From Chloroflexota bacterium (GTDB lineage: Bacteria; Chloroflexota; Anaerolineae; Aggregatilineales; Phototrophicaceae): 36,609 nucleotides of DNA. Positions 17,489 to 33,733 of the stretch are shown one piece after another (the stretch's first letter is position 1; every line of letters starts with the position of its first letter). The position numbers were made by a program, and so were the translations under genes. The notes below the pieces were generated by a model. It worked only from the letters and a program-made list of their open reading frames with translations, did not search any database and was not told where the DNA came from. The stretch spans positions 1 to 36,609 of the forward strand of contig JAPOYT010000152.1 in assembly GCA_026706445.1 (NCBI GenBank), written 5' to 3'.

Positions 17489-18307
17489 ATGCAATCTTCA
17501 CATTACTATTTCTACCGAGACGATGTAGCAATCATTGACGACAACGTGCTGAAAACAGATGCCGTATTTGATGAATCGATCGACCTGATTGTTACATCCC
17601 CGCCGTACAATGTCGATATTAAATACAACAGCAACGAAGACGACTTGTCCTACGATGAATACCTGCAATTCTCCCGCGAATGGATGTCGCGCTGTTTCGA
17701 ATGGCTCAAGTCAGACGGGCGATTCTGCCTAAACATCCCGCTGGACAAGAACAAAGGCGGACAACAGAGCGTCGGCGCAGACTTGACGACCATTGCCAAA
17801 GAAATCGGTTATCAGTACCACTCGACTATTGTTTGGAACGAAGGAAATATTTCGCGCCGCACGGCCTGGGGCTCCTGGATGAGCGCCTCGGCCCCTTATG
17901 TCATCGCGCCTGTCGAACTAATCGTTGTGCTCTATAAAGACAGTTGGAAGAAAACATCAGGTTCGCGCGAAAACGACATCACTCGCGACGAGTTCATGGA
18001 ATGGACTAACGGCGTATGGACCTTCAATGGCGAGAGCAAAAAACGCGTCGGGCATCCAGCTCCGTTTCCGCTTGAATTGCCGACGCGCTGCATTAAGTTG
18101 TTCAGCTATGTTGGCGATACGGTGTTTGATCCTTTTATGGGCAGCGGTACTACGTTGATTTCAGCTGTGATGAACAACCGATTGGGGCTAGGCGTAGATA
18201 TTGATGAGGCCTACTGCGAACTTGCCAAGACGCGCATAGAAGCAGCAATCAAATGTTCCGACTCAATTGGCTCTGAAGTGGGAGCGACCGATGAGCAATT
18301 GGCATAG
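17489..18307 (+). CDS. DNA methyltransferase, beta-class (N4-cytosine or N6-adenine)
   Basis: S-adenosylmethionine-dependent DNA methyltransferase of 272 residues. The catalytic motif IV, TSPPYN (36-41), precedes the cofactor motif I, DPFMGSGTT (214-222). That is the circular order of beta-class enzymes. The GHPAPFPLELPTRCI segment (189-203) is motif X just before motif I. Members with TSPPY include both m4C and m6A enzymes, so the base is undecided. The variable stretch between the motifs (ISRRTAWGSWMSASAPY) probably contributes to target choice. TAGGA lies eight bases before the ATG. The downstream endonuclease gene begins inside its last codons. Base composition is clearly less GC-rich than flanking genes. 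Confidence 0.93.
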   Translation: MQSSHYYFYRDDVAIIDDNVLKTDAVFDESIDLIVTSPPYNVDIKYNSNEDDLSYDEYLQFSREWMSRCFEWLKSDGRFCLNIPLDKNKGGQQSVGADLTTIAKEIGYQYHSTIVWNEGNISRRTAWGSWMSASAPYVIAPVELIVVLYKDSWKKTSGSRENDITRDEFMEWTNGVWTFNGESKKRVGHPAPFPLELPTRCIKLFSYVGDTVFDPFMGSGTTLISAVMNNRLGLGVDIDEAYCELAKTRIEAAIKCSDSIGSEVGATDEQLA

Positions 18308-18875
18308 CAGGTTGGGGTTCCTACCATACGTTGAGAGCGCACTTGGCGGCATCCCTATAGACATGGCAGGTTCGAAACTCGTTCTCGCTGGCTACCGCAA
18401 CTACATAGCTGCACACGGATCAAACCGAAGCGTCAACGGCAGAGTTTTTGAAGGGCTTGTTCTCGAATCACTGTATCGTGAAGGTATACTTCCTGCATAT
18501 TATCAGGCCTCAGTAGAGTTTATCCCCAGTGTGAACTACGACATTCTCTTGTATCATCCGAAGACCCCAGTTGTCCTGTCTTGCAAGACATCATTGCGTG
18601 AACGTTGGAAACAGGCTGACCTGGAAGGATTGGCGATAAAACAAGTATATCGTGGTGCGCGTAGTTTCCTTCTTACTATGAATGAAAAGGAAGGCAACTC
18701 AATCCAACGCAAGGTGTCAGATTCTCAGGCGGTCGGTTTGGATGAGTGCGTGGTAGTACAAGGTAAAGGCGACCAATTTGATCAGCTACTTGAGAAGCTT
18801 AAGCTGACCCAGTTTGTAGAGGCGAACGCGGTCATTCCAGTGCGCGGACGTGTAGTAAATGCTGCATCTTCGTGA
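18291..18875 (+). CDS. Putative type II restriction endonuclease partner
   Basis: A 194-residue protein overlapping the methyltransferase gene by 17 bases, the classic layout of a type II restriction-modification pair. ATG 18291 has GGGAG seven bases upstream. A PD-(D/E)xK-like core can be drawn: E54 in the first helix, D84 (VNYDILLYHP), then S97-C98-K99 (VVLSCKTSLRERWKQADLEG), with Ser where the second acidic residue usually stands. The helix after the Lys and the following FLLTMNE strand fit the fold. I cannot name a recognition sequence. Composition matches the methyltransferase and differs from the host genes, supporting joint acquisition. Nuclease function is inferred from motif and context. 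Confidence 0.72.
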   Translation: MSNWHSRLGFLPYVESALGGIPIDMAGSKLVLAGYRNYIAAHGSNRSVNGRVFEGLVLESLYREGILPAYYQASVEFIPSVNYDILLYHPKTPVVLSCKTSLRERWKQADLEGLAIKQVYRGARSFLLTMNEKEGNSIQRKVSDSQAVGLDECVVVQGKGDQFDQLLEKLKLTQFVEANAVIPVRGRVVNAASS

Positions 18876-18886
18876 CTCATTAGCCG

Positions 18887-21670
18887 ATGACCAGCCCCCC
18901 GCACCACCAACCCCCCCGCCGCCCCGCGGCGCCCTGCCTAGTCGCCCTCACATCCCTGCTCATCGCCGCCGCCCTCATCAGCCTCAGCCTCTTCCTCCCG
19001 CCAATCAACCTGCCCGACCGCCTCCTCGCCGCCCAATACAGCCCCCTCAACGCCGCATCGCCCGCCATCGCCCTCGACGCCGAGCTCCGCCTAAGCCTGC
19101 CCCCCGCCGAGCCCAGCGCCGACTTCGCCGTCAAGCTCGCGCGCCTGCCAGCGGAAGAATTCGAATCCGCCGCCGACCGGTCCCCCTGGCTCTCAGCCGC
19201 CCGCGATGCGCTTCCCTCATTCCTGACGCTGCGCAGCCCCCTCTACCACATCGAATCCCGCGGGGGGGCGCCATCGACGCTGAACCTGGAATTGCAGCCG
19301 GGCGCTGCTGAAATGCCCACAAACCGCCTCTCGCTTTACGGCTGGACCGGCGAAAACTGGCGCTTCATCCCGTCTGAGCCCGCTGCCGGTGTGCTGTATG
19401 GCGCCGCCGATTTCGCCCCGCGCGCAATTGCCGCCTTTGAAATCATCCCATCCGCGCCAATCCTGTTGATTGCGCAAGAGATAAGCGAAGACCTTGATGC
19501 CGATATCGCCGAACTCGCGACCATTCTCAGCCCCGCGGGCTTGCGTCCCACGGCAAATGGCGGCTTGATCGGGAGCCTGGCGCCCGGCGGCGTCACCAAC
19601 GCGCCCTATCTCTTCATGCCGCTGATCCGAAACTTCGCCGACCCGCGCGCCCTTGATATCACAACCATCGACGCGCTGATCGCGGACCCGCGCCTGCGCG
19701 CCGAGCATAGCGCCCGCATCACCGACTTAGTCCTTTACAACCAATTTGACGGCGTCTTCATCGATTATCGCGGGCTTTCGCCTGAGCATCGCGCCGATTT
19801 CGCGCGCTTCATCGCCGAGTTGTCCCAAAGCTTTGCGCCGCATGGTCTGCGCCTCGGCCTAGTCGTTTCGGCGGAAGCAGGCGGCGCCTACGATTGGCCT
19901 CAGCTCGGCGCGGCGGCGGATTATATTCAATTGCGCGCGATCATCGATCCTTCCGCCTATCTGCCGCATGGGGCTGCTTCTGTAGCTGATCTTCTGCGCC
20001 AGCTAACCGCCGAAGTCGCCAGAAACAAAGTCTTGCTTGGTTTGAGCGTCCGCTCCGTCCGCGAGGTCGACGGCGTCCAGAGGCGCATTGGCTGGCACGA
20101 CGCCTTCGCCGCCTTGGGTGATGTGATCGTCACCGCCGCTGAGGTCAGCCAGACCGGCTCGATTGAACCAGGCGCCCTTATCCGCGCTTCCCTCAGCGGA
20201 TACACAGCGCGCGCCGGCCTAGAGCGCGATATCCAAACAGCCTATATCGATTATCATGACGAATCCGCCGCCGCTATTTCGCGCATCTGGCTCACCGACC
20301 CTGCCGCCTTGCGCCATCGCCTGGAAAGCGTCACATCCGCTGCTATCGGCGGCGTCGCCTTTATTGACCTGCTGGCGGGCGATCACAACCGAGACCTGGA
20401 ATCGACGGTACGCGAGTTTGCATTGGGGCAGCCAGCTGGCGACGAACCCAGGCAGCTCAAGGCGCGTTGGTCGGTCGAAAGCGCGGAAGGCGAGCTCAAT
20501 CATGTCTTGACTGACCTGGATGCCGAACTGGTATTGACGATGGAGGCGCCCGATGGCAATTACGCCATCAATTGGGCGGCTGTCGCTGACGGCGAAGCGC
20601 AAAGCATCCGCCGCGGCGCCATCGTACCCTTGTTCCGTCCGACCGCCACGCCAACCCCGACGCCGACGCCCACTCCGCTTCCGCGTCCCGTTGCGGTAGC
20701 GCCCAGCAGTCCACAATATAGCGCCGCCGCGCCGCCGCCAGGCAGCATCAGCATCGAGATCGGCGGGCACGTGTCAAATACGGGCAGCGGCCGCGCCCAT
20801 CAGGCGATGCGGTCGGCGGGCATGACCTGGATGAAAATCCAGTCGCGCTATTACCAGCATGGTCCGCCAGATGTCGGGCCCGACATCAGCGCCGCGCGCA
20901 ACAACGGCTTCAAAATCTTGGTGGGTACCGTCGGCGACCCGGCGGAATTGGCCCGCGGCGGCGACGCGTATATCAATGGCTATACCAATTGGCTGCAGCG
21001 AATCGCCGGGCAAGGCGCCGACGCCATCGAAGTGTGGAACGAGCCAAACATTGACCGCGAATGGCCCCGCGGCCAGATTAGCGGCATCGCCTACGCGCGC
21101 ATGCTAGCCACCGCCTATCAGAAGATCAAGCAAGCTAACGGCTCGACCATGGTCATCAGCGCCGCCCCCGCCCCCACCGGCGCCGAGAACGCCTTTCCCG
21201 GTCAGGTGATGAACGATGACCGCTGGCTGCGCGAGATGGTCGCCGGCGGCGGACTCAATTATCTGGATTGCGTCGGCGCCCACTACAATGAAGGCATCAT
21301 CCCGCCCAGCCAAACCAGCGGCGATCCGCGCCAGGGCGATTATTACACCCGCTACTTCCATGGCATGCTCAATACCTATTACGGCATCACCCGGCGCCCC
21401 ATCTGCTTTACCGAATTGGGTTATCTCACGTCCGAGGGCTTGCCCGGCTTGCCCTCATACTTCAGTTGGGCGCAGCATGTCACCGTGCAGCAGCAGGCGG
21501 CTTGGCTGGCGCAAGCGGCCGCGCTCGCCTCGCAGAGCGGGGTGGTGCGCTTGTTCATCGTATGGAATATCGACTTCCAGCATTATGGCGCCGATCCGCA
21601 AGCGGGCTTCGCCATCATCCGTCCCGATGGCTCTTGCCCAGCTTGCAGCGCCTTGGCTGGCGCCCGCTGA
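18887..21670 (+). CDS. Membrane-anchored fusion: degenerate GH18-like domain plus clan-A glycoside hydrolase-like domain
   Basis: 927 residues. There is a short basic tail, one hydrophobic anchor or uncleaved signal (about 17-38), and a beta-rich region. Next is a GH18/YaaH-like barrel whose catalytic strand reads DGVFIDYR (288-295). The active Glu of DGxxIDxE is Arg295, so this half should be inactive. A Pro/Thr linker (FRPTATPTPTPTPTP, about 582-596) leads to a second barrel of GH5/GH39 type. Its acid/base is E719 (VWNEPNIDREW) and its nucleophile E843 (CFTELGY), both intact. The product should be extracytoplasmic. It starts 11 bases after the endonuclease stop without a clear ribosome site, so a downstream start is possible. 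Family is assigned at clan level only; substrate is unknown. Confidence 0.75.
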   Translation: MTSPPHHQPPRRPAAPCLVALTSLLIAAALISLSLFLPPINLPDRLLAAQYSPLNAASPAIALDAELRLSLPPAEPSADFAVKLARLPAEEFESAADRSPWLSAARDALPSFLTLRSPLYHIESRGGAPSTLNLELQPGAAEMPTNRLSLYGWTGENWRFIPSEPAAGVLYGAADFAPRAIAAFEIIPSAPILLIAQEISEDLDADIAELATILSPAGLRPTANGGLIGSLAPGGVTNAPYLFMPLIRNFADPRALDITTIDALIADPRLRAEHSARITDLVLYNQFDGVFIDYRGLSPEHRADFARFIAELSQSFAPHGLRLGLVVSAEAGGAYDWPQLGAAADYIQLRAIIDPSAYLPHGAASVADLLRQLTAEVARNKVLLGLSVRSVREVDGVQRRIGWHDAFAALGDVIVTAAEVSQTGSIEPGALIRASLSGYTARAGLERDIQTAYIDYHDESAAAISRIWLTDPAALRHRLESVTSAAIGGVAFIDLLAGDHNRDLESTVREFALGQPAGDEPRQLKARWSVESAEGELNHVLTDLDAELVLTMEAPDGNYAINWAAVADGEAQSIRRGAIVPLFRPTATPTPTPTPTPLPRPVAVAPSSPQYSAAAPPPGSISIEIGGHVSNTGSGRAHQAMRSAGMTWMKIQSRYYQHGPPDVGPDISAARNNGFKILVGTVGDPAELARGGDAYINGYTNWLQRIAGQGADAIEVWNEPNIDREWPRGQISGIAYARMLATAYQKIKQANGSTMVISAAPAPTGAENAFPGQVMNDDRWLREMVAGGGLNYLDCVGAHYNEGIIPPSQTSGDPRQGDYYTRYFHGMLNTYYGITRRPICFTELGYLTSEGLPGLPSYFSWAQHVTVQQQAAWLAQAAALASQSGVVRLFIVWNIDFQHYGADPQAGFAIIRPDGSCPACSALAGAR
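20640..20690 (+). repeat. Pro/Thr linker repeat at DNA level
   Basis: Short tandem alternation of CCG/CCC/CCA and ACG/ACC codons encoding the TPTPTPTP linker between the two barrels. Such tracts often vary in length between strains. Confidence 0.6.
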
Positions 21671-21751
21671 TGCGGCGGAAAACTCTCCCGCGCTGAGGCA
21701 AATTGATGTACCCTCAAGGAGTCGCTCAGCGGACGCGCACCAGGACTTGAC

Positions 21752-23185
21752 GTGGTAACCAAGGCAGTTCACAAACAAATCCGCGGCTTTGTCTTAATTT
21801 GGCTCGCCATCACATTTATCATGGTCACGGCTACCTTCCTCGCCATTTACTTTACGTCCAGCGCCGAACGGCTTGAACCCGGAATGGGCAATCCGTTGCC
21901 TCTTCTTGTCGCCGATACCGAAGAGACGCAATCAACCGAGGTCGCGGTCGCGCGGCCGAGCGCCTCGCCATTGCCGACATTCACGCCGACTCCTGTCCCG
22001 CCCGAGCCGACCGTGCCCTTGTACATGGAAGAAGTCACGCCCGAGCCGACCGATACGCCAGTACCCTCGCCGACCCCAACGCCGCTGCCCGTCGATGTCT
22101 TGAGCTATGAGGTCGGCATCCAGGTGCAAGAAGCGCTCGCCTTCAATCCGGTAAATCAGGACAACTGGTTTCGCTCGGTCTCAGCGGATCTCGGCATGAG
22201 CTGGGTGAAGCAGCAAGTGCGCTGGGAGCAGATTGAAAAAGAACAAGGCCAAATCGACTGGAGCCTGCTTGATTTCGTCATGCCCAGCGCTCAGAAATTC
22301 AACATCAAGATGCTGCTCTCCATCGTCACCGCGCCGGAATGGGCGCGCGAAGCTGACGTCAACCTGGAGTGGCACGGTCCGCCAGCAGACCCGCAGAACT
22401 TTGCCGACTTCGTCGCTGCGATTCTTAATCGCTACCCCGGCCAGATTCACGCCGTTGAAATCTGGAACGAGCAAAACCTGAATCGCGATTGGACATCAGT
22501 TCATGGGCTAAACGCGGCGAAGTACGTTGAATTGCTGCGCGCCAGCTACGAAACAATAAAGGCGACAGACCCAGGAATAATCGTAATCAGCGGCGCCCTT
22601 TCGCCTACTGGCATTGACGACGGCGTCCACGCGGTTGACGACTTCAAGTATATGGAGCGGCAAATCGAAGCCGGAATGCTCGATTGGGCTGATTGCGTCG
22701 GCGCCCATCACAATGGCTATAACGTCAGCCCCGATTATCGTTATCTCGATATCCCGGTGGATCCGTCCGCGATCTTCACCGGTCCCTTCACCAACCGGCA
22801 CCATAGCTGGAGCTTCCGCAGCACCCTGGAAGGCTACGCGCAACGCATCCGCGTGGCTGGACGCGATACCAAACTCTGCGTAACCGAATTCGGCTGGCCC
22901 TCGTCCGAGGATCTTGGCGGCGCGCGCCCGGGCTTCGAATTCTCCCTCGATAACTCCCTGGCCGAACAGGCTGAATGGATTCCCAAAGCCATGAGCAATA
23001 TGGAAGAATGGGGCTTCGTCTGGCTCGCATTCGTATGGAATTTCAATTTCGGTCCCCAAGCCGGCTACGCAATCAGCAACGACAACGTTCCCTATTCATT
23101 GATCGGTCCCGGCTTCACCTTCCGCCCCGCCTACGATTCGATCAGGGCTTGGCAGCAAGACTATCTGGCGCGCGTGAATGCCTGA
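21752..23185 (+). CDS. Membrane-anchored clan-A glycoside hydrolase-like protein (477 residues)
   Basis: Second of three tandem paralogous barrels. There is an N-terminal anchor (about 11-31, FVLIWLAITFIMVTATFLAIYF) and a Pro/Thr/Glu-rich linker (about 65-112, TFTPTPVPPEPTVP and PSPTPTPLPVDV). The GH5/GH39-type domain follows, with acid/base E240 in EIWNEQNLNRDW and nucleophile E379 in CVTEFGW. The usual NEP is NEQ here; the catalytic Glu is kept. The start is GTG at 21752, with AGGA nine bases upstream. The next gene begins eight bases before this stop. It is expected to be anchored outside the membrane and to act on a cell-surface or environmental polysaccharide. Substrate is undetermined. 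Confidence 0.78.
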   Translation: MVTKAVHKQIRGFVLIWLAITFIMVTATFLAIYFTSSAERLEPGMGNPLPLLVADTEETQSTEVAVARPSASPLPTFTPTPVPPEPTVPLYMEEVTPEPTDTPVPSPTPTPLPVDVLSYEVGIQVQEALAFNPVNQDNWFRSVSADLGMSWVKQQVRWEQIEKEQGQIDWSLLDFVMPSAQKFNIKMLLSIVTAPEWAREADVNLEWHGPPADPQNFADFVAAILNRYPGQIHAVEIWNEQNLNRDWTSVHGLNAAKYVELLRASYETIKATDPGIIVISGALSPTGIDDGVHAVDDFKYMERQIEAGMLDWADCVGAHHNGYNVSPDYRYLDIPVDPSAIFTGPFTNRHHSWSFRSTLEGYAQRIRVAGRDTKLCVTEFGWPSSEDLGGARPGFEFSLDNSLAEQAEWIPKAMSNMEEWGFVWLAFVWNFNFGPQAGYAISNDNVPYSLIGPGFTFRPAYDSIRAWQQDYLARVNA

Positions 23186-24404
23186 AATCTTGGCCTTGAC
23201 TCGACGCAAGCTGGTCGCCCTCGCGCTGGCTTTTCTCCTGGTTACTGCCTTCGGCGTCCTCGCTTGGACTTACCTGCAGCCGCATTGGGATCCATTCAAA
23301 GCAAGCGCCACTGTCGACGGTCCCTTTCCATCGTTGACCTACGGAGTTCATACATTCTTGTGGTGGGATGGCGGTTACGCTGGCGCGCATTTGGATCTGG
23401 TCCGCCTCATGTCCTTCAGTCACGTCAAACAGATCTTCGCCTGGCGCGATCTTGAGCCTCAACGCGGTGTCTGGCATTGGCATCAGGCTGACCGTATCCT
23501 AGAAGAGATTGAAAGCCGAGGTCTGCAGTTGGTCGTTCGCTTGGGTCAAACGCCATCCTGGGCGCGCATGCCCGGCGAGGAAATCGCCCGCGACGCGCCA
23601 CCGGCCGATCTGTCGGATTTTGGCGCCTACTGCGCCGCCGTTGCCCAACGCTACCAAGGGCGAATCAGCGCTTACCAAATCTGGAACGAACCCAATCTCA
23701 GTCGTGAATGGGGCGATCAACCACCCAACCCCGCGCGCTACGTCGAATTGCTCGCCGCTTGCAGCAGCGCCATTCGCCAGGCTGATCCCGCCGCCATCCT
23801 GATCTCGGCCGGCTTGGCGCCAACTGGAAATAACGATGATGCCGCTCTTCCGGACGATGTCTACTTCGATCAGATGTATCGAAACGGCTTTCAGCGCTAC
23901 ATAGATGTGGTGGGCGTACACGCGCCGGGCTTCGCCCCGCCGGAGATCGGGCCCGACGATGAAGAGGCTGCTCACCGGTGGTTCACCTTTCGCCGCGTTG
24001 AGGATCTGCGAAAAATCATGCTGCGTTACGGCGATGAAGCGCGGCAGATAGCGATCCTGGAATTTGGCTATACTACCGACCGCGTCAATCCCGATTATCA
24101 ATGGTTCAGCGTGACAGAACAGGAGCAAGCCCACTATATCGAGCGCGCATACGAGTATGCCATCGCCAATTGGCGCCCATGGATCGGATTGATGGTCTTG
24201 ATTTATATGCCAGACCCGGCCTGGCAGCCGGCAGACGAAGAATACTGGTGGGCGATTCTCGAGCCCGATGGCAGTGGTCCGCGGCCAGCCTATATCACCG
24301 TCGCCAATATGCGAAAGGTCTGCGGCGATACCATAATCGCCGAGCGCGCTTCAAATAGTCCCGTCGCCTTGGGCGAGATAAGGGCGCCAATTTGCCCTGC
24401 ATGA
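23178..24404 (+). CDS. Membrane-anchored clan-A glycoside hydrolase-like protein (408 residues)
   Basis: Third tandem barrel, the shortest version. The N-terminal membrane anchor (about 11-31, LVALALAFLLVTAFGVLAWTYL) is followed almost directly by the hydrolase domain, with no Pro/Thr linker. The acid/base is E171 (QIWNEPNLSREWG) and the nucleophile E295 (ILEFGYTTD). Shared landmarks with the two upstream paralogues are the W/Y-NE-x-N-x-x-R-x-W strand, the ISAGLAPTGNNDD segment (compare ISAAPAPTGAENA and ISGALSPTGIDDG) and the late W-x-x-x-I/F-W strand. Its ATG overlaps the preceding stop, implying translational coupling. Substrate is unknown. Confidence 0.78.
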   Translation: MPEILALTRRKLVALALAFLLVTAFGVLAWTYLQPHWDPFKASATVDGPFPSLTYGVHTFLWWDGGYAGAHLDLVRLMSFSHVKQIFAWRDLEPQRGVWHWHQADRILEEIESRGLQLVVRLGQTPSWARMPGEEIARDAPPADLSDFGAYCAAVAQRYQGRISAYQIWNEPNLSREWGDQPPNPARYVELLAACSSAIRQADPAAILISAGLAPTGNNDDAALPDDVYFDQMYRNGFQRYIDVVGVHAPGFAPPEIGPDDEEAAHRWFTFRRVEDLRKIMLRYGDEARQIAILEFGYTTDRVNPDYQWFSVTEQEQAHYIERAYEYAIANWRPWIGLMVLIYMPDPAWQPADEEYWWAILEPDGSGPRPAYITVANMRKVCGDTIIAERASNSPVALGEIRAPICPA

Positions 24405-24430: not shown

Positions 24431-24590
24431 AGAATGAATACAATGTCGTCTCGCATTCTTGCATGCGCCCAGCCTAAATCTGCGGCATACTCTAGCCCGA
24501 CCGTTCTGCTGCAACAGACTGGATAGTATTCTGTCTCATCCAACGAAGGTTCAACCGACCTTGATCAACATGGTCAAGGGTCACGCCTTG

Positions 24591-26633
24591 ATGACCAGCC
24601 GGATGAGCCGTTTCTTGGTCATCATCCTGCTTTTGCTCGCTGCCCTCTTGCGCACCCACGATCTCGCGACCCTGCCGCTGGGCTTCAGCGATGACGAAAT
24701 CATCAACATCAGACTGGTCGACAATGTGCGGCAGGGCGATATTTTTGTCTTCTATCCCGATGAAGACGGCGGGCGCGAAGGCGCCTATCACGTCTTTGCC
24801 GCCTTCATGACCTCGCTTGTAGGCGAAGGCACTATAGGATTCCGCATTTCCTCCCTGTGGCTGAGTCTGCTGTCGCTTGCCATCATCTATACGCTGGGCA
24901 ATCACCTCTTTAATCCGATTGTGGGCGTTCTGGCGGCCGGTTTAGTCGCCGTAAATATGAGCAGCATTTTGCTGGCGCGCACGGTTTCAAGCGATGCGGC
25001 TCTTCTGTTTCTTGTATCGGCGACCATGCTGGCGCTGGCTCGTTCGCTGCCCGTGTACCGTCGCACTCGCGTCGTCACGTCGAACATCGTCTCTTTCGCC
25101 GCATTGGGCGCCCTTTTGGGCATCGGCTTTTATCTGCATCCGTCCAGCCTGTTTATCGTCCTGGGCGCGATGCTCTATATTGCCCATTTGCTCTATGTCC
25201 GAAATGTCATGATTCGCCAGCGCCGCAGCTACACTGGCTTTGCCATTCTGCTGATGCTGATTATCAGCATGCCTTATCTCATATCGTCCATCAATCTGCC
25301 ACAGTATTCCGCGGGCCAGCGCATTCTCGCTCATTATGATGACGGCTTGCTGCGCTCAATTGCCGACGGCTTGCTTGCGCTCGTCGCCAACGGCGATGCG
25401 AATCCGCTGCATAACTTGCCCGGGCGCCCACTGGTTGATGCCTTCAGCGGGCTGCTGATGCTGGCGGGAATCGTCATTTGCGCGCTCAGGCGGCATCGTC
25501 CGCGCTTTATGCTGATGCTCATCATGTTTCTCGTGACGCTGCCGGCCGCCCTCATTGTTGACAGCAGTCCCAATTTCGCGCGCATGACCGTCGTAATGCC
25601 TCAGTTGGCGATCTTCTTCGGCATCGGCTTCTATGCGCTGATCCGCACGCCCATATTCGTCGACGTCATTTTCCGCCACATGGCAGTCGCGGGCGTGTTG
25701 CTGCTGCTGGCCATCAATGTCGTTTGGACCTGGTCCGACCTATTCGACGATTGGCGCGATAACGAAGCCGTTGTGCCGCTTGTCAACGGCGGGCTAGGCC
25801 AGATCGCGCACTACCTGGACACCGTCGCTTATGAGGCGCCCGTCGTATTCTGCAACTCCGCCTGGGACACAGACGCGCCGGAGCAAGTGTTAAGTCTCAG
25901 CGACAAAACGCTGCTGATGATGAATCGCTCGAATTTCGCTTTTCGTGAAGCCGATTGCAGCCTGAGCCTCCTGCTGGCCAACGGCGGCGAAAAACAGCGG
26001 GTCGTTTTCTTCGACGCAGCAATGCTGGATGGCTTGCATCCTTATATTCTGGAGTGGCTGTCACACGGGCAATGGGTATCGGGCAATCTGCCGCGCGACA
26101 CGGTCATCGAGCTCGAAGCAGCCCAACTGCTTGCCGACCGCGCCGGCGCCTTCACCACCACCGCGCCACTTTCCTACGCGCCGGAAGTCGCCGACCCCGA
26201 ACCCATTGCGCCCCCTATCCGCTTCGGCGGCAATCTCACCTTGCTCGGTTACGAACCCGATATCGAACGCTCCTATTTGCCGGGAGACGCTGTCGATGTC
26301 ATCACCTACTGGCGCGTCGAGGGCGACTTTCTGCCCGATATCATCCTCAAAAATCACATTCTTTCTGACCCGGTAACCGCGATAGGCATCCGTGATGTCA
26401 TCAGCGTCAATCCGCTTTTGCTGCGCGAACGCGATGTCTTCATTCAGGTGACTCAAGTAAACTTGCGCGAAACGATCTTGCCTGGAAATTACATCGTCGC
26501 GGTCGGCGCCTATCGACAAAGCGACCAGGAACGCCTGCCAGCCCTGAAAGATGACCAGCCACACGGCGACCGCATCTTTCTGTATGACATCGAGGTGCTT
26601 CCCTTGCCCGAATCTGACGAAAGCGGCGGCTGA
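24591..26633 (+). CDS. GT-C membrane glycosyltransferase (GT39-like)
   Basis: 680 residues from ATG 24591. The frame is open to 24459, but this start has AAGGG ten bases upstream and begins right before the first membrane helix. The GT-C signature acidic cluster D34-D35-E36 (GFSDDEI) follows helix 1. About ten to twelve membrane helices run to ~380. Residues from ~540 onward form a soluble beta-rich domain (RFGGNLTLLGYEPD ... GDAVDVITYWRVEG ... PGNYIVAVGAY), a C-terminal module often attached to such enzymes in Chloroflexota. It should move a sugar from a polyprenyl-phosphate donor to an extracytoplasmic acceptor. It follows the three hydrolase genes and overlaps rnz by one base. Confidence 0.82.
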   Translation: MTSRMSRFLVIILLLLAALLRTHDLATLPLGFSDDEIINIRLVDNVRQGDIFVFYPDEDGGREGAYHVFAAFMTSLVGEGTIGFRISSLWLSLLSLAIIYTLGNHLFNPIVGVLAAGLVAVNMSSILLARTVSSDAALLFLVSATMLALARSLPVYRRTRVVTSNIVSFAALGALLGIGFYLHPSSLFIVLGAMLYIAHLLYVRNVMIRQRRSYTGFAILLMLIISMPYLISSINLPQYSAGQRILAHYDDGLLRSIADGLLALVANGDANPLHNLPGRPLVDAFSGLLMLAGIVICALRRHRPRFMLMLIMFLVTLPAALIVDSSPNFARMTVVMPQLAIFFGIGFYALIRTPIFVDVIFRHMAVAGVLLLLAINVVWTWSDLFDDWRDNEAVVPLVNGGLGQIAHYLDTVAYEAPVVFCNSAWDTDAPEQVLSLSDKTLLMMNRSNFAFREADCSLSLLLANGGEKQRVVFFDAAMLDGLHPYILEWLSHGQWVSGNLPRDTVIELEAAQLLADRAGAFTTTAPLSYAPEVADPEPIAPPIRFGGNLTLLGYEPDIERSYLPGDAVDVITYWRVEGDFLPDIILKNHILSDPVTAIGIRDVISVNPLLLRERDVFIQVTQVNLRETILPGNYIVAVGAYRQSDQERLPALKDDQPHGDRIFLYDIEVLPLPESDESGG

Positions 26634-27622
26634 TGTTCGAGCTTGTTTTCCTCGGCACTTCAGCCTCGGCGCCGTCCATTTACCGTGGCTTGCCGTCCCT
26701 CGCCGTGCTGGCTGGCGAGCAGCGCTTCCTGGTCGATTGCGGCGAAGGCGCGCAGCGTCAAATCTTGCGCAGCGGCATCGGCTTTAAGCGGCTCAATCGC
26801 ATCTTCTTGACCCATGCGCACCTGGATCATATTCTCGGCTTGGGCGGCCTGCTCTCGACCTTCGGCCGCTGGGAAGCGCTGGACGAGATTCACATTTGGG
26901 GCGGTTTGCCTGCAATTGAACGCGTGCAATCGCTGATCTATCAGGTCGTTTTTCGCCGAGAATCGCCGCCTGTCCCGATCTATTTCTATCGCGCCATGCC
27001 CGACGAAATCCTCTTCAGCGGGCGCAATTTTTCCATTCGCGCCTTCCCGGTCTCGCATCGCGGGCGCGAATGCTACGGCTATATTTTCGAGGAAGATTCG
27101 CGCCGCCCCTTCCTGGCTGATAAAGCGGAGGCGCTTGGCGTGCCGCATGGTCCCGAACGCAGCCAACTCGTCGCCGGGGAATCAATCGTCACGCCCGCAG
27201 GCCGAATCATTGATCCCGACGACGTCTTGGGCGAGCCTATCCGCGGCGCCAAAGTCGTCGTCACCGGCGATCTCGCCCGCACCGACGACATTCGCGACGC
27301 CGTGCGTGATGCCGACGCCCTGGTGATCGAATCGACATACCTCGACAGACACGCCGATATCGCGCGTCAAGTCGGCCATATCACCGCGCGCCAAGCGGGT
27401 GAACTGGCGCGCGAATGCAACGTGAAGTTTCTCTTTCTCACTCACATATCACGTCGCTATCGCGAATTCGAGGTGATCAGCGAGGTACGCAAAATCTTTC
27501 CCGATTCCTATGTCGCGCGCGACCTGGACCATTTCGCCATCTTTCGGGATAAACTGCCGCAGAAACTGGAATCGTCTTTTGAAGATGGCGCCGAAGACGA
27601 CCTGCCCGAAGGAGGCGAATAG
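26633..27622 (+). CDS. rnz: Ribonuclease Z
   Basis: Metallo-beta-lactamase-fold tRNA 3'-end endonuclease. Landmarks are ELVFLGTSASAPSIYRGLPS at the N-terminus, the zinc motif THAHLDH (60-66), SHRG, VTGD and a late THIS histidine. Length is 329 residues versus about 305-310 in most relatives; the extra part is an acidic C-terminal tail (SSFEDGAEDDLPEGGE). The usual EATF motif is ESTY here. The start overlaps the stop of the glycosyltransferase gene by one base (TGATG), so translation is coupled. The function is housekeeping and probably unrelated to the glycan genes it is attached to. Confidence 0.93.
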   Translation: MFELVFLGTSASAPSIYRGLPSLAVLAGEQRFLVDCGEGAQRQILRSGIGFKRLNRIFLTHAHLDHILGLGGLLSTFGRWEALDEIHIWGGLPAIERVQSLIYQVVFRRESPPVPIYFYRAMPDEILFSGRNFSIRAFPVSHRGRECYGYIFEEDSRRPFLADKAEALGVPHGPERSQLVAGESIVTPAGRIIDPDDVLGEPIRGAKVVVTGDLARTDDIRDAVRDADALVIESTYLDRHADIARQVGHITARQAGELARECNVKFLFLTHISRRYREFEVISEVRKIFPDSYVARDLDHFAIFRDKLPQKLESSFEDGAEDDLPEGGE

Positions 27623-28344: not shown

Positions 28345-29811
28345 TCAGTTGATCGTGCCGACGTCAATCATCCCCTCGCCAAACACCTGTCCCGGCTCGA
28401 TCACCATCGGCGCCGCCACATCGACCGTACCGATCAAATCGTAGGTCGTCGCGCCAGTGATTCGCACCGGCGCGATTTCGCCGATCGGCAGCTCGCCCTC
28501 AACCAGCACATAGCCATCGATCTCGGGCGCGTCGCGATAACTGCGTCCCAGGCTGATGACATCGCTCGTCTCGGCGCCATTTTCATCTTCGCCGGCGCCA
28601 TGCCCCTCCACCAGGATATTCAGCGTCCGGCCGACCAGCGCTTGATTCTTCTTCAGGCTGATGCCGCTCTGCAATTCCATCAGCCGCTCGTAGCGCTCTT
28701 GCTTGATCGCGTCATCGACCTGATTCGGCAGCGCCGCGCTCGGCGTGCCCAATTCGTAACTGTATTGAAAGGCGCCAACGCGGTCGAATTCCAACTCGCG
28801 AACCAGCTTCAGCAGCGCCTCAAACTCCTCATCGCTTTCGCCCGGATAGCCGACGATAAAGGTCGTGCGAACAGCCAACTCCGGCATCAACTCGCGCAGC
28901 CGGCCGATCGTCTCGTACACCCATTCGACCTTGGCGGGCCGCTTCATCCGTTTCAGCGTCTCGCGGTGCCCGTGCTGCAGCGGAATATCGAGATAGGGCA
29001 GCGCCTGCTCGTGCCGCGCCATCGTCTCCATCAGCCGCGGCGTCACATATCCCGGATACGCGTACATGATGCGCAGCCAGGGGATGCCCGGCGCCGCTTC
29101 CACAATCGCGTCCAGCAGATGCGCCAAGCCGTCCTTCATGCCCAGGCCGTAACCATAATCGGTGCTGTCCTGCGCGATCAGCATCACTTCCTTGACGCCC
29201 ATTTCACCCAGCCGCATCGCCTCAGCCACGATCGCTTCCAGCGGTCTGCTCACCGCCGTGCCCTTGATCCGCGGGATGGCGCAAAATGCGCAGGGCCGCC
29301 GACAGCCATCGGCGATTTTCAAGTAAGCCGAGGCGCCTTGCACGCTCGCCCGCAGCACACCGCGTTCATCGCGCCCGACCACCGCGGCCTCGCCCGGCAG
29401 ATGATACAGCGGCTCGGGATGCTTCCGCGCCCGCAGCCGCCGGATCAGATCGAATATGTCCATCCAGCGCCGCGTGCCGATGACGCCATCTAACCCGGGC
29501 GCCTCTTGCACGAGCGTATCGCCATAACGCTGCGACAGGCAGCCAGCCGCGATCACCATCTGATCGGCGCGCTTGATCGCCACCAACTCGCGCAGCGCTT
29601 CAACCGATTCTTCCTTCGCCGCGTTGATGAAGCCGCAAGTATTGACGATCAGCACCTCAGCCGCTTCCGGGTCGCCCACGCCGCGCATGCCGCTCTGCTG
29701 CAAGACCTGCGCCATGCTCTCGCTGTCCACCGTGTTCTTCGAGCAGCCGAGGCTGAGCAGATAGTATTTGTCTTTCTGTCTATTAGTCGCGCTTGTCAAA
29801 TTGATTTTCAT
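28345..29811 (-). CDS. rimO: Ribosomal protein S12 methylthiotransferase
   Basis: Radical-SAM enzyme with two iron-sulfur clusters that adds a methylthio group to the conserved Asp of ribosomal protein S12. The N-terminal MTTase domain has Cys23, Cys59 and Cys91 (SLGCSKN, VNTCGF, AAGCLSQ). The radical-SAM motif is C170-R-R-P-C174-A-F-C177. The TRAM domain is at the C-terminus. The frame is open to 29925, but ATG 29811 is preferred: GGAGG lies just upstream and the ATG overlaps the rodZ-like stop (TGATG). From there it has 488 residues, longer than the usual ~440, partly through an acidic insert in the TRAM region (EGHGAGEDENGAETSD). Confidence 0.95.
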   Translation of the reverse strand: MKINLTSATNRQKDKYYLLSLGCSKNTVDSESMAQVLQQSGMRGVGDPEAAEVLIVNTCGFINAAKEESVEALRELVAIKRADQMVIAAGCLSQRYGDTLVQEAPGLDGVIGTRRWMDIFDLIRRLRARKHPEPLYHLPGEAAVVGRDERGVLRASVQGASAYLKIADGCRRPCAFCAIPRIKGTAVSRPLEAIVAEAMRLGEMGVKEVMLIAQDSTDYGYGLGMKDGLAHLLDAIVEAAPGIPWLRIMYAYPGYVTPRLMETMARHEQALPYLDIPLQHGHRETLKRMKRPAKVEWVYETIGRLRELMPELAVRTTFIVGYPGESDEEFEALLKLVRELEFDRVGAFQYSYELGTPSAALPNQVDDAIKQERYERLMELQSGISLKKNQALVGRTLNILVEGHGAGEDENGAETSDVISLGRSYRDAPEIDGYVLVEGELPIGEIAPVRITGATTYDLIGTVDVAAPMVIEPGQVFGEGMIDVGTIN

Positions 29812-30929
29812 CACGCCCCCTCCTTCGTCGGCGGCAAACCCGCCTGCGTCACCCGCGGCGGCAAGAGCGCCGTCGGCGGACCCGGCGTCGACGTATCGCT
29901 TGGTATCGGCGTTATCGTCGGCCAAGGCGTATTCGTCAGCGTCGGTATCGGCGTCGCGCTCGGTATCAAGGTTTCCGTCGGCGTCGGACTCGGTCCCTCG
30001 GTCGCCGTCGGCTCAACCACAGGCGCTGTCGCAAGGCCCTCCGCTGTCGGACTCTGCGGCGTCGGCGCCCCCGCCGGACCCAATTCGACAATCGACTCGG
30101 TCGCCGTGAAGCGGATATCGGCTCGCTGCCCGCGCCCGCCGATCTGCCCCTGCCGCTGCCCATTCCAAATCACATCGAGCGCCATTGCGTTGGCCGCCGC
30201 CACCCGCACTTCGCTCCGCGCATTGTACTCCAGCAGCGTATCCGGCGCCGCGATGCCGCTGAATTGCTCGACCCCGTCCACCTGCACATTCATCCAACTT
30301 CGCTGCGTCAGCAACAGGCTGACCAGGATGCCGCTGCCGCCATACTGCGCCCGATTCGCATCGGTCGGCGCGGCCGCCACCGGCGCGGTCGGCGGAGGCG
30401 CCTCGGCTTCCGCCGGCGGCGAGAAGACGGTCGCCTCAGTTGCTTGACCAGGCACTACGATATTCTCCAGCCCGACCAGCTGGACCGTCACATAGCCGAT
30501 AATGGCGAGCGCCGCCGCCGAAAACAGCAGGAGCAACAGAAGCCGCAGCAGGCTGCCGCAGGTGGACGAACGCCGCTCCGCCAGCTGCATCTCCTGCATC
30601 GGCTGCGTCGAACTGAGGACGCGCTCCGCTTCCGCTTCTTCCCGCTGCCGTCTCCTTCCCCGTCGGCTTCGTCGCGCTTTCTCTTGCGCCACGCGCATTT
30701 GGCTGTAAAGCCGCAGCACATCCTCTTCGTCCAGCTCGAGGAAGCGCGCGTAAATCCGCAGCATGCCGCGGACTTGTATCTCCGGCACGCCAGCGATCTC
30801 GAACTCGCCCGCTTCAAAGGCTTCCAGTATCGGCTGACGAATCTTCAGCCCGGCGACCGCGTCTTCGATTGTAATTTCGTTGGCTTCGCGCGCTTCGCGC
30901 AGTATCTGCCCGAGGGAGTAGGCATCCAT
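29811..30929 (-). CDS. rodZ: RodZ-like cytoskeletal membrane protein with Pro/Thr-rich tail
   Basis: 372 residues with RodZ architecture. The N-terminal helix-turn-helix (about 5-75; LGQILREAREANEITIEDAVAGLKI ... VRGMLRIYARFLELDEE) contacts MreB in known members. It is followed by a basic stretch (86-98), one membrane helix (about 125-149) and an extracytoplasmic DUF4115-like domain (about 200-285; SWMNVQVDGVEQFSG). The tail from ~289 is almost only Pro, Thr and Ser, a feature not found in E. coli RodZ. It lies between rplI and rimO, and a rodZ-rimO neighbourhood is known in other phyla. The ribosome site is weak. Role in cell shape is inferred from the family; no mreB is in the window. Confidence 0.82.
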   Translation of the reverse strand: MDAYSLGQILREAREANEITIEDAVAGLKIRQPILEAFEAGEFEIAGVPEIQVRGMLRIYARFLELDEEDVLRLYSQMRVAQEKARRSRRGRRRQREEAEAERVLSSTQPMQEMQLAERRSSTCGSLLRLLLLLLFSAAALAIIGYVTVQLVGLENIVVPGQATEATVFSPPAEAEAPPPTAPVAAAPTDANRAQYGGSGILVSLLLTQRSWMNVQVDGVEQFSGIAAPDTLLEYNARSEVRVAAANAMALDVIWNGQRQGQIGGRGQRADIRFTATESIVELGPAGAPTPQSPTAEGLATAPVVEPTATEGPSPTPTETLIPSATPIPTLTNTPWPTITPIPSDTSTPGPPTALLPPRVTQAGLPPTKEGA

Positions 30930-30950
30930 CAGCTTCGGCGGCCCTCAATG

Positions 30951-30990
30951 AAGAAACCCCGTCGTTCAGTATAACCGCTAAGGGACGGGG
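30951..30990 (-). terminator. Intrinsic terminator after rplI
   Basis: On the minus strand CCCCGTC and GACGGGG (7 perfect pairs, 20-base loop) are followed by TTTCTT. The loop contains TATACT, which might serve as a -10 for the rodZ-like gene, so this could be a terminator with an embedded downstream promoter. Confidence 0.55.
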
Positions 30991-31032
30991 CAAGGGCGTC
31001 TGTATCACTAATTGTTTGAAGGATGCTGCCTT

Positions 31033-31686
31033 TTACTCCTCGACCGCCTCGAATTCCGCCACCGGCTCCGTTTCGTCGGCGGCCGCGGGCGCTTCGTCTT
31101 CGCTTTCCGCCGCTTCCTCAACATCCGTCAACTCTTCGGCGCCGTCATCGGCTGATGTCGCATAGCGGAATCCTTCCGCCATGATGTCTTCCGCGCTGAC
31201 GATCTCGCCCCGTTCGCGCGCCGCCAGGAACTCCGGCAGATCGTCTTCCGGCACGATGGTAATCGTCAGCGTCGGCGCAATCTCTGTGCCCAGCCGTACT
31301 GGCACGCGGTGCGTCCCCACCTCGCGCAGCGATTGCTGGCTGATGCGCCGCCGATTGATATCGACGCTGGTCACGCGGTCCAACTCATCGGCGATCTCCT
31401 GTGTCGTCACCGAGCCGAAAAGCTTGCCCGTTGACGCCGCCCGTCGGCCAAAAAACAATTCGACGCCATCGATTTGACGCGCCAGCTCGTTGAGCATATT
31501 ATTGTATTGCGCCTTTCGCGCTTCGACATTCTGGCGGATCGTTTCCGTCTGGCGCAGGGCTGACGTTGTCGCTTGCATCGCGATCTTGCGCGGGATCAAA
31601 TAATTGCGCGCAAAGCCATCAGCCACCTTGACCACCTCGCCTGCTACCCCGTGCTTGTACAAGTCCTGAAGCAAAATAACTTGCAT
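31033..31686 (-). CDS. rplI: Ribosomal protein bL9 with long acidic C-terminal extension
   Basis: Large-subunit protein that binds 23S rRNA near the L1 stalk. The N-domain (MQVILLQDLYKHGVAGEVVKVADGFARNYLIPRKIA), the connecting helix and the C-domain (to about 146) are all normal. The remaining ~70 residues are not part of the usual ~148-residue protein and end in a strongly acidic, Ala/Glu-rich tail (179-217). GAGGG lies seven bases before the ATG. A strong promoter stands about 60 bases upstream. It is first of the minus-strand group rplI, rodZ-like, rimO. Confidence 0.95.
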   Translation of the reverse strand: MQVILLQDLYKHGVAGEVVKVADGFARNYLIPRKIAMQATTSALRQTETIRQNVEARKAQYNNMLNELARQIDGVELFFGRRAASTGKLFGSVTTQEIADELDRVTSVDINRRRISQQSLREVGTHRVPVRLGTEIAPTLTITIVPEDDLPEFLAARERGEIVSAEDIMAEGFRYATSADDGAEELTDVEEAAESEDEAPAAADETEPVAEFEAVEE

Positions 31687-31753
31687 GTGAATCCCTCACA
31701 TTTTCCGCGTCAACCGCCGCGCAGACTGCGTCTTCCATCGACTAAGCTGGTAT

Positions 31754-31781
31754 ATTATAGCCATATCGCCGCCCCTGCCAA
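31754..31781 (-). promoter_or_regulatory. Strong sigma-70 promoter of rplI
   Basis: The minus strand reads TTGGCA (31776-31781), 16 bases, TATAAT (31754-31759): a perfect -10 and a five-of-six -35. The predicted transcription start near 31747 leaves a leader of about 60 bases. Confidence 0.75.
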
Positions 31782-31832
31782 GTGGCAAACGAAGCCCGGA
31801 AATGGTGAAACTCTTGGGTTTTCCCTTTGACG

Positions 31833-32024
31833 AAGGCTGAAAAGCCTTTTCACATAGAGGACGCGCAAAACATAGAGTGTTTTGTTGGTTGAGCAAAGTT
31901 CACATGGTGTCGGAACCTAGCAAACCAGCGGACGTGACTTGATATGAGCCTACACAAAGCACAGAGAAATATAGCGGAAACCTCTGTGTTCTTTGTGTTT
32001 CCCCTTTTCCCCTGTGGTGAATGC
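31833..32024. repeat. Decayed CACAGAG-type repeat cluster in the rplI-murJ gap
   Basis: The 412-base gap between rplI and murJ holds no gene. Several hairpins are packed in it. AAGGCT-GAAA-AGCCTT is at 31833-31848. CAAAACA-TAGAG-TGTTTTG is at 31866-31884. A larger inverted pair has ACACAAAG CACAGAG (31952-31966) against CTCTGTG TT CTTTGTGT (31983-31999). CCTGTGGTGAA follows at 32011. The words CACAGAG, CTCTGTG and CTGTGGTGAA are those of a widespread bacterial intergenic repeat, here degenerated. Its relative is at 34753-34787. Confidence 0.65.
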
Positions 32025-32098
32025 TTCGGTGGCTCTCAACACCTAAGAAATTTCCCACTCCCCCATGCCCCGCCAACGAGCGCGGCTGAGGCATGACG

Positions 32099-33733
32099 AT
32101 GAGCCAGAGCAACGCGCTGGACAATCGAGAAATCATCGAAAAAACGCTGATTGTGCTCGCTGGATTTGTCGCCAGCGGTCTGCTCGGTCTCGTTCGGCTG
32201 GCGGTGGTCGGCGCGCAATTCGGCACCGGCGCCGCCTATGATGCTTTTGCCGCCGCCCAGCAATTGCCCGAGTCCGTCTTTGTGCTGGTCGCCGGTGGCG
32301 CGCTCGGCTCGTCCTTCATCCCCATCTACGCCAAATACCGCGTAATCGACCAGGAAGCGGCTTCGCGCCTGGCCAGCGCCGTCATGACCCTGTCCGCAGC
32401 CGGCGCGGCAATGCTCGGCGCCGTCGTCCATATCTTGGCGCCCCAACTGGTGACGCTCGTCCTTTACCGCGATCGTTCCCCGCAAGAGCAGCAGCTGATG
32501 ATCGACATGGTCCGACTGATGATGCTGACGCCCTTCATTTTCAGCGTCAGCGGCTTGCTGATGGGCTTGCTGCAATCGCACGCCGCCTTCTGGCTGCCCG
32601 CCATCGCTATCAGCATGAATAATATCGGCATCATCATCGGCGCTCTGTTCATCGCCCCGGTCTTGCCGGCGCATCCGGATGTGGGGCAGGTCGGCCAACT
32701 CAACATCATGGGCTTGGCTTATGGCGCTGTATTAAGCGCATGCCTGCATCTGCTCGCGCAGCTTCCCGGCCTCAGCAAGCTGCCTGTGCGGCTGCGGCCC
32801 CTGCTTTCCCCGCGCATCCCCGGCGTCCTTGATGTCCTGCGCCTGATGCTGCCGCGCGTTTTTGGCTTAGCGGTTGTGCAGATCAATTTTCACGTCAATA
32901 TCATTCTGGCGAACACCATGGTCGCCGGCAGCGTCGGCGCGGTTCGCTACGCCTTCATGCTGACCTTCTTCGCGCTCGGCATCATCGCCCAAAGCCAGGG
33001 TTCAGCCGTCTTTCCCACATTGGCGGCGCTAAAAGCCGAGGGCGATTACGACGGCTTCAAAGACCGCCTCTCGCGCGCCATGCGCAATGTGCTCTGCCTG
33101 TCCTTTCCCGCTACAACCTTGCTGATCGTACTGGGCGAGCCGCTGGTCAGCGTCCTCCAGCGGGGTGAATGGACCGCCGACAGCACCGCGGCTGTCGCTT
33201 GGGCGATGGGCTTCTACGCCATCGGCATCGGCGGTTTTGCCCTGCTTGAAGTGCTTTCGCGCGCCTTCTACGCCCTGGAAGACAGTCGTACGCCAGCCAT
33301 CGCCGGCGCCCTCGCCATGCTCGGCAATATCGCGCTCAACCTCATCTTCATCCAGCTGATCGGCGATCCCGACAGTCTGGCGCGCGGCGCATTCGCCGGC
33401 TTGGCGCTCGCCAACGCCCTCACCACCATCGTCGAAGCGCTGGCGCTCTGGTGGCTGATTCGCCGTCGACTGGCAAACCACGGCTCGGAGCGCGGTATCC
33501 ACGACCGGGAGATTCTCACGAGCGCCGCTGGCAGCTTGCTGCTCTCGCTCTTGATGGCGGCTTCGCTTGGTCTCGTGATGGGGGCATTGCCCGCTGGCGG
33601 CTTGACGCTGGCGATCGTCGGCTGCGCCACTGCCGGTCTGATTTTCTTCGGCGGCGGCTATTTGTTCAACCTCAGCGAAGTGCGCGAGCTGCTCCGACCT
33701 TTCCTTCGCCGCTTGCTGCCCGTCAATGAATAA
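32099..33733 (+). CDS. murJ: Lipid II flippase MurJ/MviN
   Basis: Polytopic membrane protein (544 residues, about 14 helices) of the MOP superfamily that moves the peptidoglycan precursor lipid II across the membrane. The N-terminal GLLGLVRLAVVGAQFGTGAAYDAFAAAQQLPESVF and GGALGSSFIPIYAKYR are the diagnostic MurJ region, with the functionally important Arg residues and the PE before the membrane helix. A later signature is FYALEDSRTPAIAGALAMLGNIALNL. ATG 32099 has GAGG seven bases upstream; an in-frame ATG at 32093 is the alternative. It is preceded by the repeat-rich gap and followed by two family A hairpins. Confidence 0.93.
   Translation: MSQSNALDNREIIEKTLIVLAGFVASGLLGLVRLAVVGAQFGTGAAYDAFAAAQQLPESVFVLVAGGALGSSFIPIYAKYRVIDQEAASRLASAVMTLSAAGAAMLGAVVHILAPQLVTLVLYRDRSPQEQQLMIDMVRLMMLTPFIFSVSGLLMGLLQSHAAFWLPAIAISMNNIGIIIGALFIAPVLPAHPDVGQVGQLNIMGLAYGAVLSACLHLLAQLPGLSKLPVRLRPLLSPRIPGVLDVLRLMLPRVFGLAVVQINFHVNIILANTMVAGSVGAVRYAFMLTFFALGIIAQSQGSAVFPTLAALKAEGDYDGFKDRLSRAMRNVLCLSFPATTLLIVLGEPLVSVLQRGEWTADSTAAVAWAMGFYAIGIGGFALLEVLSRAFYALEDSRTPAIAGALAMLGNIALNLIFIQLIGDPDSLARGAFAGLALANALTTIVEALALWWLIRRRLANHGSERGIHDREILTSAAGSLLLSLLMAASLGLVMGALPAGGLTLAIVGCATAGLIFFGGGYLFNLSEVRELLRPFLRRLLPVNE

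Follow-up and report, generated by a model that had tools for sequence, protein, structure and literature searches.

The glycosidase PslG of Pseudomonas aeruginosa (GH39; PDB 5bx9, 4zn2 and 9g17) trims a biofilm sugar. Among proteins of the GH18 fold, SleL carries LysM, and the chitinase-like lectins CHI3L1 and Ym1, together with other non-catalytic GH18 proteins, are catalytically dead sugar binders. Passages of one report (PMC11912335) identify Glu165 and Glu276 as the acid/base and nucleophile of PslG, and an exopolysaccharide as its substrate. Here we describe a locus from a bacterium of the class Anaerolineae in which PslG-like barrels are encoded by tandem paralogous genes, one of them fused to a SleL-like domain. 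The locus lies within a stretch of 36,609 nucleotides that was analysed as a whole (the window). A published account of such an array was not found in the literature searched, which agrees with the initial annotation, where it could be matched to no described system.

Architecture of the tandem array

Three consecutive plus-strand genes (A, B and C), with open reading frames of 927, 477 and 408 codons, are directly followed by a GT-C gene (D). The features of the locus are as follows:

18887..21670, plus strand: gene A, 927 amino acids (open reading frame, Pfam scan and model), with modules in the order transmembrane helix, beta-rich domain, GH18-like domain, beta domain, PT linker, GH39/PslG-like barrel
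18932..18988, plus strand: N-terminal membrane helix of A, residues 16-34 (model and hydropathy)
19454..20431, plus strand: GH18/SleL-like domain of A, about residues 190-515 (PDB match list; weak, sub-cut-off Pfam GH18 match)
19769..19771, plus strand: codon for Arg295 of A, where GH18 enzymes have their catalytic Glu (alignment to 5jh8; conservation)
20741..21667, plus strand: second barrel of A, about residues 619-927, with predicted catalytic Glu719 and Glu843
21752..23185, plus strand: gene B, 477 amino acids, with anchor, PT-rich linker and PslG-like barrel (Glu240, Glu379)
23178..24404, plus strand: gene C, 408 amino acids, with anchor and PslG-like barrel (Glu171, Glu295)
24591..26633 (listed open reading frame start 24459), plus strand: gene D, PMT_2-type GT-C protein
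26633..27622, plus strand: RNase Z-type gene, adjoining D

Gene B starts with a GTG codon and overlaps gene C by 8 bases. Hydropathy reveals a hydrophobic N-terminal segment in each of the three window proteins, and structural models place a helix at residues 16-34 of A and 9-37 of C, in line with the membrane anchoring that had been proposed for all three.

A, B and C have homologous barrels. Those of A and B align with 28% identity (E 8e-29), as do those of B and C (E 7e-33), both values being far past chance, and all three carry the W-N-E-x-N and E-[F/L]-G strands from which the initial annotation had recognized clan-A hydrolase-like proteins. When solved structures are searched by sequence, PslG is the top match of both B (E 9.8e-12) and C (E 4.1e-14). 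The AlphaFold2 model of C (pLDDT 91) likewise retrieves PslG at ranks 1-3 (TM 0.66) and another GH39 enzyme at rank 4. For A, the same sequence search yields GH18 proteins only. In its PDB match list the rows shown include no GH39 chain either, and because the GH18 domain fills this list they are uninformative on the second barrel, which is tied to PslG through its likeness to B. Pfam matches are weaker guides. GH18 and GH113 match A weakly and below cut-off, GH10 and GH42 match B below cut-off, and C is matched by GH42 and GH10 just over cut-off and by GH5 and GH39 below it. Since the GH39 model PF01229 does not reach its cut-off of 26 bits with C (16.6 bits) and leaves A and B unmatched, we call the barrels PslG-like rather than GH39 enzymes. 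Among the candidates scored, PF01229 is listed for several close relatives of C, and the names given to relatives vary by source from hypothetical protein to beta-galactosidase, cellulase-family hydrolase and PslG, two of them (P0111 and P0313) being labelled 'polysaccharide biosynthesis protein PslG' by JGI.

Both glutamates at the predicted acid/base and nucleophile positions are retained in 54 of 58 A, 71 of 78 B and 69 of 69 C barrels, and in 32 of 34 barrels of a fourth type, A0, described below (window copies included; 249 of 260 proteins were kept after those of odd length or coverage had been dropped). The pair is replaced by Q and A in five B orthologs (L066, L068, L069, L070 and L086), so B would be a pseudoenzyme in part of its group. 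PslG and the array thus have in common a homologous barrel and its two glutamates. However, PslG is only about 22% identical to C in structural alignment, and the array consists of three or four tandem paralogs with extra modules and no surrounding Psl-type cluster: the hydrolases do not lie within a polysaccharide synthesis/export cluster, and D is the sole glycosyltransferase directly in the block.

The N-terminal half of A has the GH18 TIM-barrel fold and is closest, in the PDB match list, to SleL, tied with class V chitinases. The GH18-like part named in the initial annotation is therefore real, but its DxxDxDxE motif lacks the catalytic Glu. Arg occupies this place in 58 of 60 block orthologs, and the Glu is present in 2 of 40 proteins sampled across the class. 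Unlike SleL and the class V chitinases, then, A has this residue replaced, mostly by Arg; it also differs from SleL in having no Pfam match to LysM and in being fused to a second, different barrel. Lectins of the CHI3L1/Ym1 type, which share the fold and also appear in the match list, are set apart from A by its bacterial origin, membrane anchor and two-barrel organization, and sugar binding by A is putative. The domain is probably a glycan-holding arm that places the catalytic second barrel, and its dead site disfavours a muramidase-type action.

Distribution and history of the barrels

Conservation of the array was assessed in two samples. The first comprised the best 80 of 132 loci by likeness to B, from which loci with fewer than 6000 bases upstream (22 of 80) or fewer than 5000 downstream (18 of 80) were left out of the respective counts. 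A full or nearly full A lies upstream of B in 52 of 58 of these loci, and C lies downstream in 59 of 62. The second sample was selected by A and took one region from each of 40 families; of the 31 regions that extend at least 2.5 kb downstream, 28 have a barrel gene after A, the exceptions being L126, L127 and L159. A search with residues 1-588 of A finds matches in 102 of 120 class genomes, among them that of the window. Three of these matches are incomplete: those in G104 and G168 are partial, and that in G158 covers residues 257-363 only and may be an ordinary GH18 protein. A search among relatives matched A in 61 of 61 genomes, and the block sought by the initial annotation in related genomes is clearly conserved there rather than absent. 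In a phylum-wide sample 22 of 151 genomes match the front of A; five of these belong to the window's class, its own genome among them. Beyond that class, frames close to A in length occur in G180, G188 and G192, and the rest are mostly short GH18 stretches.

Some lineages do without the module. We considered 20 class genomes without a match to A, namely 12 of the 18 such class genomes and eight others from the phylum sample (G064, G084, G114, G136, G156 and G175 were outside this set). At a threshold of E <= 1e-20, C-type barrels are missing from twelve, all near-complete, and present in the other eight. The twelve (11 of family f34 and one of f54) show the module to be dispensable in some lineages, and the f34 and f54 genomes that lack both the A front and C-type barrels offer a clean natural comparison for its role.

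The breadth of this distribution bears on whether the array might degrade external sponge, plant or microbial glycans as food. Such a function would fit the weak GH10-, GH42- and GH5-type Pfam matches, and Anaerolineae are described in parts of one study (PMC10608941) as degraders of complex organic matter. However, the proteins carry membrane anchors, a scan of window genes around the block found no uptake system, and the array is present in most class genomes, from many sources, with conserved synteny rather than variable content. We consider a feeding role quite improbable; with matches in 102 of 120 class genomes, A looks like a housekeeping protein rather than a diet enzyme.

The initial annotation took the three genes for duplicates progressively trimmed at their front ends. 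Adjacency, a common strand and a common superfamily are compatible with a recent triplication followed by stepwise loss. In a 91-row tree, however, B (96/89) and C (100/99) are each a single group, of 21 rows apiece, while A and A0 share a long branch, amounting to 1.71 changes per site, with the unlinked paralogs L007, L009 and L010. C falls on the side of the tree that also contains L002, L003, L004 and L013, unlinked paralogs from its own genome; several paralogs have long branches, which leaves their placement unsure. The barrels are thus old and deeply separated lineages, and the array is old as well. In a 60-row tree, a single-clade origin of the block, apart from the unlinked paralogs tested, is 20 log units worse but not rejected (AU p 0.16), so that an old tandem origin is compatible with the data and only the recent duplication is contradicted.

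The front ends behave as separate modules. Of the family representatives that have a barrel (38), 32 combine the GH18-like module with a barrel of B type and six with one of A type, which argues that modules were exchanged rather than trimmed. The fourth barrel, A0, precedes a full A in 20 of the 35 loci whose neighbourhood is not window-like and in none of 23 loci with the window-like upstream gene, and it carries SH3 domains in L087, the one example scanned. The [AS]PTG segment that had been offered as a sign of local duplication also occurs in the unlinked paralogs L005, L007, L009 and L010, and was rejected as proof. Given the tree and the exchange of modules, we reject recent triplication with trimming as very improbable indeed.

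A search of the window's own genome for paralogs gave 14 matches on 11 contigs, three being the window genes and two very weak (L013 and L014). One paralog (L003; L173:8361-11489) is a barrel fused to a Wzy_C O-antigen ligase membrane domain; its neighbours, part of a polysaccharide gene cluster, encode an epimerase, another Wzy_C protein, GtrA and a glycosyltransferase. Another shares its stretch with GT4- and GT9-type genes, and a third is followed by a PMT_2 GT-C gene weakly like D (26% over 183 residues), forming a second, unlinked pair of barrel and GT-C genes. LysM repeats were at first ascribed to three A-type paralogs; they are present in L010 and L011 and absent from L007 and L009. 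The L011/L012 protein (contig C243) has six LysM repeats, and both of its catalytic motifs look broken by eye; it is probably a dead relative.

Neighbouring genes and the cell wall

Gene D resembles membrane glycosyltransferases of the PMT_2/GT-C type in matching PF13231 over cut-off and in the D/E-D-E-type motif found early in many of its orthologs, but a simple search for this motif is empty in 23 of 60 orthologs. The GT-C gene reported directly after C is thus genuine, with its start probably near 24591 rather than at the TTG at 24459, because ortholog matches listed mostly begin at query residues 17-45. In the sample picked by likeness to B, 56 of the 62 loci that extend at least 5 kb downstream retain D, and RNase Z is retained in 52 of 56. 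Among the 40 family-representative regions, several of them short, D is found in one and RNase Z in two. They are therefore conserved neighbours in the window's relatives and were rejected as class-wide parts.

Several other neighbours were recorded. The window contains another PMT_2 GT-C gene (8946-10850, minus strand; E 3.8e-10), which is hardly like D. A CopD-type membrane protein gene separates C from D in one relative, which belongs to another family (L087:12614-13126), and among the matches listed similar gaps occur in further loci from outside the window's genus. At 17489-18875, between a KDPG-aldolase-type gene and A, lie a DNA methyltransferase (PF01555) and a candidate for a small BsaWI-like endonuclease (sub-cut-off); because they recur in only 6 and 2 of 80 related loci, respectively, they look like an inserted restriction-modification pair and were rejected as part of the unit. 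RodZ-type (PF13464) and MurJ-type (PF03023) genes lie at 29811-33733, separated by a gene for ribosomal protein L9. Clustering of neighbouring open reading frames gave mostly antisense frames and a few small gene groups.

Cell-wall genes near the array raise a second possible function, in which the barrels would act on peptidoglycan or an attached polymer, placed by the SleL-like domain and in step with MreB-driven elongation. This is on the unlikely side, yet a serious candidate. It accords with the likeness to SleL (tied with class V chitinases), with LysM or SH3 domains on related barrels, and with the RodZ- and MurJ-type genes some 6-8 kb downstream of the block. A gene for MreB, MurA, MreC, PBP or MurJ occurs no farther than about 7 kb from A in 8 of the 40 family regions (in L140 Pfam confirms MreB, MreC and PBP; in L141 it confirms MreB and, at the MurA position, an EPSP-synthase-family protein), but 32 regions have no such gene. 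Of the 102 genomes with A, 8, belonging to 5 families, have MurA no more than 15 kb away (G065, G077, G082, G113, G142, G155, G160 and G166, with G102 just outside) where we estimate about 0.8 by chance, and RecA in 0 of 102, distances having been compared by hand from listed places. Because MurA was examined after being seen beside C, this linkage is suggestive only, and related genomes are not independent for the count. The dead GH18-like site opposes muramidase-type action, and PslG itself acts on an exopolysaccharide according to the passages cited above (PMC11912335). For sponge Chloroflexi, portions of one study (PMC6306507) report CBM50 (LysM) as the most abundant CBM, restricted to Caldilineae and Anaerolineae, and peptidoglycan synthesis genes in both classes. 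In the boldest version of this idea, the array would be an envelope machine that defines the class Anaerolineae: a dead SleL-like domain, reading nascent peptidoglycan or a polymer attached to the wall, would guide the tandem PslG-like glycosidases as they process an undescribed secondary wall glycan during MreB-driven growth. This seems to us rather doubtful.

Proposed role and significance

We favour the reading that A, B and C are outward-facing, membrane-anchored PslG-like beta-glycosidases that act on the cell's own glycan, because PslG is the top solved relative of B and C, both glutamates are kept in most copies, the front of A is matched in 102 of 120 class genomes, some paralogs lie beside polysaccharide genes or carry LysM repeats, and two relatives already bear the PslG name at JGI. 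Against it stand the position of the block outside a polysaccharide cluster, the absence of linked D in most other families, the lack of a GH39 match over cut-off, the twelve class genomes without C-type barrels and the five B orthologs that lack both glutamates. Taken as a whole, we judge this own-surface reading to stand at an even chance. By analogy with PslG, the three proteins, perhaps in cooperation, would trim or release lipid- or wall-linked surface polysaccharide chains as these leave the membrane; the GH18-like arm of A would hold the glycan and position A's catalytic barrel, and D may be a synthetic partner in the window's relatives only. The cell-surface glycan unit envisaged in the initial annotation accordingly survives in its homologous, anchored barrels and conserved block, whereas linkage of D (1 of 40 family regions) does not extend to the class. 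The array is probably a core surface-glycan module, hitherto undescribed, with a conserved dead SleL-like domain.

Anaerolineae are a large class that has been little studied; their envelope is little known, and the array provides a concrete entry to their surface glycan. Its largest protein, A, which pairs a dead GH18 domain with a PslG-like barrel, occurs in most of the class genomes sampled. Names such as beta-galactosidase or cellulase-family hydrolase call for caution, lest these genes be counted as food-degrading. The array is probably an ordinary, previously undescribed part of how Anaerolineae build their surface.
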